Shown: positions 58,556 through 64,000 of the stretch, one piece after another
Position numbering within the stretch: the stretch's first letter is position 1
Layout: each line of letters opens with the position of its first letter
NCBI RefSeq assembly: GCF_009742705.1
Contig: NZ_WPCU01000005.1
Coordinates: 5,962-69,961 of the forward strand
DNA: 64,000 nt
Direction of reading: 5' to 3'
DNA from: Auraticoccus cholistanensis
GTDB taxonomy: Bacteria > Actinomycetota > Actinomycetes > Propionibacteriales > Propionibacteriaceae
Notes under the pieces: model-generated
What the model was told of the DNA's origin: nothing
What the model saw: the letters and a program-made list of their open reading frames with translations, nothing else
Databases searched by the model: none
Program-made: the position numbers and the translations under genes

Positions 58556-58580
58556 CATGGTCGCGAGGATGGGCAATCGT
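58552..58580 (+). promoter_or_regulatory. Promoter of the ilvBNC operon
   Basis: TTGACA (58552-58557), 17 bases, then AATCGT (58575-58580), then 6 bases to the leader-peptide GTG. A perfect -35 with ideal spacing is rare in this window and suggests a strong promoter held in check by the downstream attenuator. Confidence 0.65.
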
Positions 58581-58586
58581 GTCCGT

Positions 58587-58628
58587 GTGCAGCACCACAT
58601 CCTCGTACTCCCACGGCGCGTCGACTGA
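58587..58628 (+). CDS. ilvB leader peptide
   Basis: 13 codons reading MQHHILVLPRRVD from a GTG 6 bases after the -10, without a ribosome site. Ile-Leu-Val-Leu in a row plus a later Val is the composition expected of a branched-chain amino-acid attenuator. The terminator follows 21 bases after the stop codon. An in-frame ATG six codons upstream (MGNRVRVQHH...) would require an earlier transcription start. Stalling at scarce Ile/Leu/Val tRNA would raise readthrough into ilvB. Confidence 0.72.
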   Translation: MQHHILVLPRRVD

Positions 58629-58649
58629 CTCCGGTCCTGTCGCCGCGCT

Positions 58650-58682
58650 CCCTCGCCTGCCTGCTGGCAGCGGGGGTTTTTT
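58650..58682 (+). terminator. Attenuator terminator before ilvB
   Basis: Left arm CCCTCGCCTGCC (58650-58661), loop TGCT, right arm GGCAGCGGGGG (58666-58676), then six T. The stem is 11 bp with one bulged C. It is the clearest intrinsic terminator in the window. I could not assign the competing antiterminator with confidence. Confidence 0.8.
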
Positions 58683-58733
58683 GTTGCACGAGCACTTCCG
58701 GGAGACGGCGTACCGTCAGAGAGGACACCGGGC

Positions 58734-62187: not shown

Positions 62188-62717
62188 GAGATGTCGAGGT
62201 CGAGGGCCAGCTGCTCCGTCCCCGGGGGTGTGCCGGTGGCCACCCGCCAGGTGGTCGGCGGCGGCTGGCCCTCGACCCGTTTGCCGTCGCTGGTGCGCAC
62301 GCACCGCCCGCTCCAGTCCGACGGCAGCGGGTTGGGCTGGTCGCGCTGGCAGGGGCCGTACAGCTCCTCGAGCTGCTCGCCGACGTCGGGGCGCCGCTCG
62401 GGCTCGGGCAGCAGCAGCCGGGCGGTCAGGGCGAAGTCGTGGGTGCTGACGTACTCCGCGCGCTCGACCACGGTCCCCTCCGGCAGCACCAGCCCCGTCC
62501 GCTCCGTCAGGTCGGCCACGGTCATCGGCGAGCAGACGTAGCCGGTCCAGGTGGTGCGGCACGGGCTGCCCGCGTCGTTGGTGTAGCGGGCGTAGGGGAT
62601 GCCCCACTTCGGCGCCTGGCTCCACAGCAGGGCGCCGGTGAGGGTGAGTGCCCCCAGCGCCACGGCCACCCCGAGCAGGGCCCGCCGCAGCCGGTGGGGC
62701 AGGGGGGCGCGGGGCAT
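62178..62717 (-). CDS. Hypothetical single-pass membrane-anchored protein
   Basis: 179-residue protein. Residues about 12-32 (ALLGVAVALGALTLTGALLW) form a membrane anchor or uncleaved signal. The external domain has four Cys (SPCRTTWTGYVCSPM and YGPCQRDQ...GRC) that could make two disulfides. No family is recognised. ATG is 6 bases after CATGCT, a weak -10. It converges with ilvC. Confidence 0.72.
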   Translation of the reverse strand: MPRAPLPHRLRRALLGVAVALGALTLTGALLWSQAPKWGIPYARYTNDAGSPCRTTWTGYVCSPMTVADLTERTGLVLPEGTVVERAEYVSTHDFALTARLLLPEPERRPDVGEQLEELYGPCQRDQPNPLPSDWSGRCVRTSDGKRVEGQPPPTTWRVATGTPPGTEQLALDLDISSR

Positions 62718-62834
62718 GGGCCAAGCATGACCCGCCGGAGCGCCCCGGCGGGAGGGGTGCGGGCGGAAAACTGGTCGGTCCTCAGCCGGACGGCCATCCA
62801 GCGGGACGGGCTGGCCGGTCGTGGTCGGTGCGGC

Positions 62835-62840
62835 TACGGT
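62835..62840 (+). promoter_or_regulatory. -10 element of the DAHP synthase leader (leaderless)
   Basis: TACGGT lies exactly 6 bases before the GTG of the aromatic leader peptide. A -35 is not obvious. Confidence 0.5.
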
Positions 62841-62846
62841 GGGTCC

Positions 62847-62906
62847 GTGACCGCACGTTGGTATGCCTATGTCGCGTTGGCTCTGGAGGGGCCGGCGACG
62901 GGCTGA
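62847..62906 (+). CDS. Aromatic leader peptide before DAHP synthase
   Basis: 19-residue peptide MTARWYAYVALALEGPATG, with Trp-Tyr-Ala-Tyr at positions 5-8. It starts with GTG at the predicted transcription start, has no ribosome site, and is followed 30 bases after its stop by a strong hairpin and then by the DAHP synthase gene. Leader peptides rich in aromatic residues control such genes in other actinobacteria (aroR of Corynebacterium is one). Trp/Tyr supply is the likely signal. Confidence 0.65.
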   Translation: MTARWYAYVALALEGPATG

Positions 62907-62935
62907 CGCGCTCGACACACCTTCCAGAAGCCACG

Positions 62936-62957
62936 GGACCAGGAGAACTCCTGGTCC
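62936..62957 (+). promoter_or_regulatory. Perfect hairpin in the DAHP synthase leader
   Basis: Arms GGACCAGGAG and CTCCTGGTCC with AA between: a perfect 10-bp inverted repeat, probably a 9-bp stem with a four-base loop. Only two T follow, so it is not a standard intrinsic terminator. The GGACC arm could alternatively pair with GGTCC at 62988-62992, just before the ribosome site, so control of translation or Rho access is possible. Confidence 0.6.
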
Positions 62958-63008
62958 TTCGCCATGTCAGGCGGGCTCTGGGAACGGGGTCCGTCGGAGA
63001 GGACCACC

Positions 63009-64000
63009 ATGACGACCCCGTTGCGGGCCAGCACCGCGGACCTGCGGGTGACCGGGCTCAGCCCGCTGCCCGCGCCCGACGCCCTGCTCGCCGAGCTGCC
63101 CGCCACACCCGCCGCCGGCGCCGCCGTCGAACGCGGCCGCGCCGAGGTCTCGGCCGTGCTGGACGGCCTCGACGACCGGCTGCTCGTGGTGGTCGGGCCG
63201 TGCTCGATCCACGACGTGCGGGCCGGTCTGGAGTACGCCGACCGGCTCGCCGACCTCGCCGCCACGCTGCGCGGCGACCTGCTGGTGGTCATGCGCACCT
63301 ACTTCGAGAAGCCGCGGACCACGGTGGGCTGGAAGGGGCTGGTCAACGACCCGCACCTCGACGGCAGCCACGACATCGCCACCGGGATCGCCACCGCCCG
63401 CCGCTTCCTGCTCGCGGTGGGGGAGCGCGGCCTGCCGTGCGCGACGGAGTTCCTCGAGCCGGTCACCCCGCAGTACCTGGCCGACCAGATCAGCTGGGGT
63501 GCCATCGGCGCCCGTACGGCCGAGAGCCAGATCCACCGCCAGCTGGTGTCGGGGCTGTCCATGCCGGTGGGCTTCAAGAACGGCACCGACGGCGACCTGC
63601 AGGTGGCCGTCGACGGCTGCTCCGCCGCCGCCGTGCCGCAGTCCTTCCTGGGCATCGACCCCCAGGGCCGGGCCGCGCTGGTCTCGACCGCGGGCAACCC
63701 CGACACCCACGTGGTGCTGCGCGGCGGCCGGACCGGACCCAACCACGGGCCCGAGCACGTCGCCGCCGCCTCGGCGCGGATGGCCGCCGCGGGGCTGAAC
63801 CCCCGGGTGGTGGTGGACGCCAGCCACGCCAACTCCGGCAAGGACCACCGCCGGCAGGCCGAGGTCGCCCGCAGCCTGGCCGCGCAGGTGGCCGCCGGTT
63901 CCACCGCCCTCGCCGGGGTCATGCTCGAGAGCTTCCTGGTCGGGGGCGCGCAGGAGCTGGACGTCACCGCGCCGACCGACCGGCTCACCTACGGCCAGAG
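63009..64000 (+). CDS. DAHP synthase class I (AroF/G/H type), 3' end beyond window
   Basis: 3-deoxy-7-phosphoheptulonate synthase, first step of aromatic synthesis. 330 codons are visible of an expected 350-360. Motifs are VVGPCSIHDVRAGLEYADR, RTYFEKPRTTVGWKGL, VGFKNGTDGDLQVAVDG and VVDASHANSGKDHRRQ. This is the AroFGH type rather than the class II enzyme common in other actinobacteria. GGAGAGG precedes the ATG. Expression is probably governed by the leader peptide and hairpin upstream. Confidence 0.94.
   Translation, partial: MTTPLRASTADLRVTGLSPLPAPDALLAELPATPAAGAAVERGRAEVSAVLDGLDDRLLVVVGPCSIHDVRAGLEYADRLADLAATLRGDLLVVMRTYFEKPRTTVGWKGLVNDPHLDGSHDIATGIATARRFLLAVGERGLPCATEFLEPVTPQYLADQISWGAIGARTAESQIHRQLVSGLSMPVGFKNGTDGDLQVAVDGCSAAAVPQSFLGIDPQGRAALVSTAGNPDTHVVLRGGRTGPNHGPEHVAAASARMAAAGLNPRVVVDASHANSGKDHRRQAEVARSLAAQVAAGSTALAGVMLESFLVGGAQELDVTAPTDRLTYGQ

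Follow-up and report, generated by a model that had tools for sequence, protein, structure and literature searches.

A conserved aromatic leader peptide and a predicted RNA switch before class I DAHP synthase genes of actinobacteria

Attenuators of the E. coli trp type have control codons in a leader ORF and RNA pairings that are mutually exclusive. Aromatic amino-acid synthesis begins with DAHP synthase, an enzyme targeted in strain engineering. In Corynebacterium glutamicum, a leader termed aroR has been described before the DAHP synthase gene aroF (PMC7356990). A Phe-Tyr-Phe leader was predicted there (PMC4046766), and transcription of the aroF operon, in the summary given of Neshat et al. 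(2014), was raised under Phe limitation and unaffected by Tyr (PMC11802643). The passages on aroR in these accounts concern Corynebacterium only (PMC11802643; PMC4046766). Elsewhere in the actinobacteria, the leaders of cys operons were described as being without a typical terminator (Seliverstov, 2005; PMC1262725), and the leuA leader of S. lividans was reported to be leaderless and also to have no typical terminator (PMC8079986). The 2005 survey, in its relevant passages, reports no conserved structures before genes of amino-acid pathways other than those for Trp, Cys, and Leu (PMC1262725). The list of eight S. lividans leaders contains none preceding a DAHP synthase (PMC8079986), and the leaders listed for C. 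diphtheriae are trp, ilvB, and leu (PMC5784534). A literature search, which covered few subscription papers, found no description of an aroR-type element outside Corynebacterium.

The window analyzed here, a stretch of 64,000 nucleotides from Auraticoccus cholistanensis, ends within a class I DAHP synthase gene that is preceded by a short aromatic leader ORF and several complementary RNA regions (Table 1). The ORF from the ATG at 63009 was found to match Pfam DAHP_synth_1 (E = 9.9e-77) and NCBIfam aroFGH, in agreement with the preliminary description, which had read this gene as a DAHP synthase. That description had also reported a leader peptide with Trp-Tyr-Ala-Tyr six bases after TACGGT, and a perfect 10-bp repeat that lacks a T-tract, with control perhaps exerted by translation or Rho in place of intrinsic termination. 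The letters of the peptide were confirmed, the repeat was verified (hairpin 3:4, a perfect 10-bp repeat with a 2-nt spacer), and no terminator-like site was called in 62700–63100. Directly after WYAY, at 62871–62873, the window has Val (GUC) where relatives usually have a Phe codon, and L003, from the window's genus, has Arg in its place. The window leader contains no Phe codon, and with the usual Phe codon replaced in the genus the control codons are therefore Trp and Tyr only. No Rfam match was obtained at the gathering threshold in the window, and within 62500–63300 the sole match was to a miRNA model at E 9. The window's genome also encodes a class II DAHP synthase (L278), and no aromatic leader was seen in the 0.5 kb upstream of it.

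Table 1. Features of the DAHP synthase leader in the window.
Feature	Position	Strand	Basis or remark
-10 element TACGGT	62835..62840	+	six bases upstream of leader start codon
Leader peptide ORF MTARWYAYVALALEGPATG, GTG start 62847-62849, stop TGA 62904-62906	62847..62906	+	letters and relatives
Control codons UGG UAU GCC UAU (Trp-Tyr-Ala-Tyr)	62859..62870	+	
Region 1, UUGGCUCUGGAGG, within leader ORF; partner region 2	62877..62889	+	
Region 2, CCUUCCAGAAGCCA; partner region 1 (one-base bulge in window) or region 5	62920..62933	+	
Hairpin 3:4, 5' arm, perfect 10-bp	62936..62945	+	repeat check, covariation
Hairpin 3:4, 3' arm, then UUCGCC (without T-tract)	62948..62957	+	
Region 5, GGCGGGCUCUGGGA; pairs alternatively with region 2; also in hairpin 5:6	62970..62983	+	
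Region 6, GGUCCGUC; partner of region 5	62988..62995	+	letters; WYAY-group consensus for 5:6
Shine-Dalgarno-like GGAGAGG of DAHP synthase gene	62996..63002	+	read from letters
Class I DAHP synthase gene (aroF type), ATG 63009, runs off window	63009..64000	+	

Class I DAHP synthase loci were collected by protein search in the genus, family, and order to which the window belongs, as well as in two other actinobacterial families (f6 and f7), with matches in 13 of 197 family, 67 of 391 order, 59 of 149 f6, and 100 of 121 f7 genomes. All 13 family loci, 66 of the 67 order loci (a split gene in G197 was left out), 58 of the 59 f6 loci (G855 left out, again a split gene), and 66 of the 100 f7 loci were examined. 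L152 has the leader and was kept outside the counts owing to a shifted offset and a contig end; 190 loci remain, the window included. An aromatic leader precedes 189 of these 190 sampled actinobacterial loci, so that the search for WYAY-type peptides before DAHP synthase genes proposed in the preliminary description returned a conserved element. The leader was found by motif at 180 loci and by eye at nine, and the last locus was uninformative (L274, wrong flank). Those found by eye are L100, L101, L103, L105 (Phe-Tyr type), L125 (inserted base), L139 (RWYANF), L170, L249, and L265; all nine have TANNNT 6–7 nt ahead of a start codon, and their 1:2 duplex is mostly not individually significant (0–27 of 100 shuffles as strong). 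In L125 the inserted base alters the end of the peptide and leaves region 1 intact, or represents a sequencing error.

A further set of 80 named loci yielded the leader by motif in 26 and by eye in L029. No leader was visible at seven actinobacterial loci of this set (L031, L032, L034, L036, L054, L061, and L068), given that the motif set almost always demands Trp and would miss Trp-less leaders. No acceptable leader was present at the 45 loci from other phyla; 42 were unmatched in the motif search, and L055, L084, and L092 were dropped as chance aromatic ORFs. Among these 45, L041 and L058 have fewer than 200 bases upstream. L020 was dropped as lying on the same contig as L007. The 206 motif-found leaders (180 + 26), some of which may represent the same species twice and are not all independent, fall into the groups WYAY (87), YWRF (54), KRIB (36), YFWF (27), and FYF type (2).

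TANNNT was found 5–9 nt upstream of a candidate start codon in all 206 motif-found leaders, compared with 12.8 expected when the same upstream letters are shuffled against the same candidate starts (several leaders have more than one). The distance to the start is 7 nt in 152 leaders and 6 nt in 45. This spacing supports a leaderless mRNA beginning at or beside the leader GTG, and the leaderless start put forward from the window letters thus fits its relatives as well. The likeness to the window's ilv leader that had been drawn at the same time is weak, as the ilv leader has a T-tract terminator and no TANNNT 5–9 nt upstream of its candidate starts (58569 and 58587). That leader (58569–58684, with the ORF ending at stop 58626) has ILVL codons at 58599–58610, with a terminator-like hairpin and six T downstream of them.

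The codon choice of the leaders is also distinctive. In the WYAY group, TAT accounts for 164 of 168 leader Tyr codons vs. 1 of 238 in the sampled gene parts, and TTT for 80 of 88 leader Phe codons vs. 3 of 368. Across the 206 motif-found loci, Tyr and Phe are mostly encoded by TAT and TTT, which are rare in neighboring genes, and the preference for TTT is weakest in the YFWF group (30 TTT, 14 TTC). As read from the letters, a putative leader ORF with codons for end products of the pathway is present in the window and conserved in its relatives.

The layout of the predicted switch is such that region 1 lies in the ORF past the aromatic codons, region 2 past the stop codon, and region 5 past hairpin 3:4. 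To assess pairing 1:2, region 1 was set at a constant distance of 5 nt downstream of the last motif codon, and its best partner was sought beyond the stop codon. The mean score compared with re-searched shuffles was 24.7 vs. 13.9 (WYAY), 26.3 vs. 15.4 (YWRF), 22.9 vs. 14.3 (KRIB), and 21.1 vs. 15.1 (YFWF), and all 50 shuffles were beaten in 90, 76, 58, and 22% of the sequences, respectively. The ungapped search misplaced region 2 of the window, whose 1:2 helix with its one-base bulge (62877–62889 with 62920–62933) rests on folding and the repeat check. Pairing 1:2 covaries strongly. In an alignment of 45 sequences, which is not a neutral sample (52 exceeded a minimum 1:2 score and seven KRIB sequences were left out), 93.3% of the cells of 1:2 plus 3:4 are paired, with 139 cells changed on both sides. 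The covariation of 0.398 falls to at most 0.146 on sliding and was reached by none of 500 shuffles; 15 pairs with a double change were found, a number reached by 6 of 500.

For the alternative pairing 2:5, mean scores against re-searched shuffles were 17.9 vs. 9.7 (WYAY), 16.7 vs. 11.4 (YWRF), 18.1 vs. 13.0 (KRIB), 10.9 vs. 9.8 (YFWF), and 2.5 vs. 6.4 (the two FYF-type loci). The observed value was reached on average by 6, 16, 23, 47, and 85% of the shuffles in the same order. The 2:5 pairing is best supported in WYAY, the window's own group, and modest elsewhere; partners in its pair tables were placed by complementarity, so that the partner-shuffle control is lenient. RNAalifold on a MAFFT alignment of 80 distinct WYAY sequences gave 1:2 + 3:4 + 5:6, and when region 1 was removed (79 sequences) it gave 2:5 around 3:4. 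The KRIB group showed the same behavior for 1:2 and 2:5. The YWRF consensus with region 1 combines 2:5 with a hairpin within the ORF, and without region 1 the greater part of region 2 pairs beyond region 5 (233 of 253 cells). Minimum-energy folds of single sequences, with landmarks for both pairings placed by complementarity, contained 1:2 in 85 of 87 WYAY, 50 of 54 YWRF, 35 of 36 KRIB, and 13 of 27 YFWF sequences, and without region 1 contained 2:5 in 77, 40, 34, and 6 of these, respectively. Hairpin 3:4 occurs in both predicted states of the window and in the WYAY consensus with or without region 1. The 10-bp hairpin, presented at first as the switch, is thus common to both states, and the conserved exchange predicted from folding and covariation is that between the mutually exclusive pairings 1:2 and 2:5, with less support outside WYAY.

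A covariance model was built on 1:2 + 3:4 and applied with strict filters, 12 candidates being scored per genome. At least 46 of 296 genomes of the class matched, with 47 matches, and 33 of the 46 come from five families that the training alignment did not include. Thirty returned matches all lie before class I DAHP synthase genes. A further 15 comprise five before class I DAHP synthase and ten, all in family f20, before another gene; the remaining two are the L244 locus and a weak match on the opposite strand at the place of L289. With the loci from the protein search counted in, leaders before class I DAHP synthase genes were found in ten families (f1, f2, f3, f4, f6, f7, f23, f39, f40, and f47). 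A strict pattern search matched at least 5 of 394 genomes and is too strict for judging breadth.

The same leader RNA is found at the f20 loci (L312–L317 and L319–L322), where its aromatic codons are Phe or Tyr/Phe, without Trp. In profile searches, the L312 protein matched a part of DAHP_synth_1 and also the type II chorismate mutase profile. The chorismate-mutase part of this protein is shared by all ten downstream genes, nine being similar over most of its length, with the N-terminal part that in L312 gives the DAHP_synth_1 match, and L321 over the C-terminal part only; the profile matches are those of L312, and the other nine were assigned by similarity to it. Trp codons as a mark separating DAHP synthase leaders from chorismate-mutase leaders were considered and dropped, as the search motifs nearly all contain Trp, which also biases counts of the three aromatics. 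DAHP synthase leaders without Trp in the aromatic stretch do exist (L100, L101, L103, L105, L282, and L302).

The sequence after hairpin 3:4 differs between the groups. Its longest T run is at most three in 86 of 87 WYAY loci (two in 67), four in 35 of 36 KRIB loci, and four to six in 20 of 54 YWRF loci. The KRIB and YWRF runs suggest termination at 3:4, which a two-state scheme of 1:2 and 2:5 leaves unexplained. At 17 of 27 YFWF loci there is a downstream hairpin GAGCCGG-loop-CCGGCTC, the 5' arm of which was read as region 2; at L257, one of these 17, it is followed by seven T. At L277, region 2 forms the 5' arm of a different hairpin, after which there are six T. These T-tract hairpins of L257 and L277 are unlike those of most relatives of that group.

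In the window, GGUCC of region 6 is complementary to GGACC (63001–63005) beside the ribosome-binding site (RBS), a match of letters which suggests control at the RBS. The related claim that the hairpin arm CTCCTGGTCC can pair beside the RBS (GGACCA, 63001–63006) stands for the window letters and does not extend to relatives with another hairpin sequence, so that this pairing of hairpin arm and RBS flank is limited to close relatives of the window. The predicted RBS with region 1 free was more open in 20 and less open in 37 of the 87 WYAY loci, the respective numbers being 10 and 13 of 54 (YWRF), 6 and 5 of 36 (KRIB), 9 and 1 of 27 (YFWF), and 1 and 1 of 2 (FYF type); the start codon was picked automatically and was visibly wrong at some loci (e.g., L047). 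There is no single direction of change: the YFWF result speaks for 1:2 as the ON state, and the WYAY result would lean against it if the output is RBS accessibility.

Taken together, the leader is likely to be an aroR-type, ribosome-controlled element of the DAHP synthase gene, in which 2:5 would be the OFF and 1:2 the ON state, and which probably turns the gene on when aromatic amino acids run short. A ribosome would read Trp-Tyr-Ala-Tyr in the leader. With charged aromatic tRNAs plentiful, ribosomes would traverse region 1 and hold it unpaired, and region 2 would pair with region 5. With charged aromatic tRNAs scarce, the ribosome would stall on the aromatic codons, a few bases upstream of region 1, which would be left mostly free to pair with region 2, releasing region 5; the stall would also keep following ribosomes off region 1 and so allow 1:2. 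The direction proposed, 2:5 as OFF and 1:2 as ON, was taken from L257 and L277, because region 2 is there the 5' arm of an intrinsic terminator, and 1:2 as the likely ON state would be expected for a biosynthetic gene. With no terminator in the window's lineage, the output is more likely to lie at the RBS, or to act through Rho or pausing. At the RBS of the window, region 6 or 5 could be set against the GGACC beside it.

A stalled ribosome usually reaches about 10–12 nt beyond its A site. The region 1 core of WYAY-type leaders begins 17 nt after the Trp codon and 14 nt after the first Tyr codon, a gap exceeding this reach, and a stall at either would therefore leave region 1 free. If the ribosome stalled at the nearest codon instead, it would partly overlie region 1, which counts against the two-state scheme, as do the YWRF consensus, where removal of region 1 gives no 2:5, the modest 2:5 scores outside WYAY, and the absence of 1:2 from about half of the YFWF folds.

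The same distances bear on the classical trp-type geometry, in which a stalled ribosome would mask region 1, making 2:5 the ON state, and an unstalled one would leave 1:2 and low expression. As the region 1 core begins only 5 nt past the last motif codon, part of it would be covered by a ribosome stalled at that codon, and with region 1 masked the predicted WYAY RBS is more open at 37 and less open at 20 of the 87 loci. However, the Trp and first Tyr codons lie beyond the ribosome's reach, and at L257 and L277 the downstream pairing of region 2 is an intrinsic terminator, so that a state like 2:5 would be OFF; this geometry is considered unlikely. A similarly low probability is assigned to regulated termination at hairpin 3:4, which would act as an intrinsic terminator in lineages with T-tracts and be decayed or Rho-assisted in that of the window. 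The KRIB and YWRF runs of four or more T are what this reading would lead one to expect, but 86 of 87 WYAY loci have three T or fewer, no terminator was called in the window, the hairpin occurs in both predicted states, and 17 of 27 YFWF loci have the region 2 hairpin instead.

It is much less probable still that the peptide is the effector, as a nascent-chain arrest peptide with RWYAYFALALEGPA conserved at the protein level. Peptide conservation within the WYAY group is strong, yet the part after the aromatic residues varies between groups while compensatory changes keep 1:2, the altered peptide end of L125 is found with an intact region 1, and the codon choice is unlike that of neighboring genes. 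That a small ORF and a hairpin without regulatory role lie together by chance can practically be dismissed, being contradicted by conservation: leaders precede class I DAHP synthase genes in ten actinobacterial families, the leaderless spacing holds in 206 of 206 cases, and the pairing covaries.

The ribosome-controlled reading with 1:2 as ON may, tentatively, be widened to an unclassified leader switch that is widespread among actinobacteria and in which a stall upstream of region 1 would permit, rather than block, the decisive pairing. Between lineages, its output would have shifted from intrinsic termination towards control near the RBS without a terminator, and the element would also have been taken up by a second aromatic-pathway gene, one with a chorismate-mutase domain. 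A leader shared across actinobacteria provides one testable rule for the control of DAHP synthase, and the element is a candidate for a new RNA family. The T-tracts after its hairpins form a natural series from none to seven T, with which it can be asked how an attenuator loses its terminator and yet works.

With the E. coli trp type, the window shares control codons in a leader ORF and (as predicted) mutually exclusive pairings; unlike that type, it has no intrinsic terminator, the control codons precede its first pairing region, and its spacing is leaderless. The cys and leuA leaders resemble it in having a leader peptide without a typical terminator, and differ in the amino acids concerned. 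In C. glutamicum with aroR, as in the window, a class I DAHP synthase is preceded by a short leader peptide with aromatic residues, and both genomes also contain a class II enzyme. However, aroR has an FYF motif where the window has WYAY(V), and a response to Phe is reported for it, whereas the window leader is without a Phe codon. The likeness to aroR follows its published description, and the RNA comparison covers the FYF-type loci L263 and L266, which have complementary regions 1 and 2 and hairpin 3:4, with no 2:5 signal. The aroR-type leader is more widespread than the published accounts found state, and in the lineage of the window it is terminator-less.
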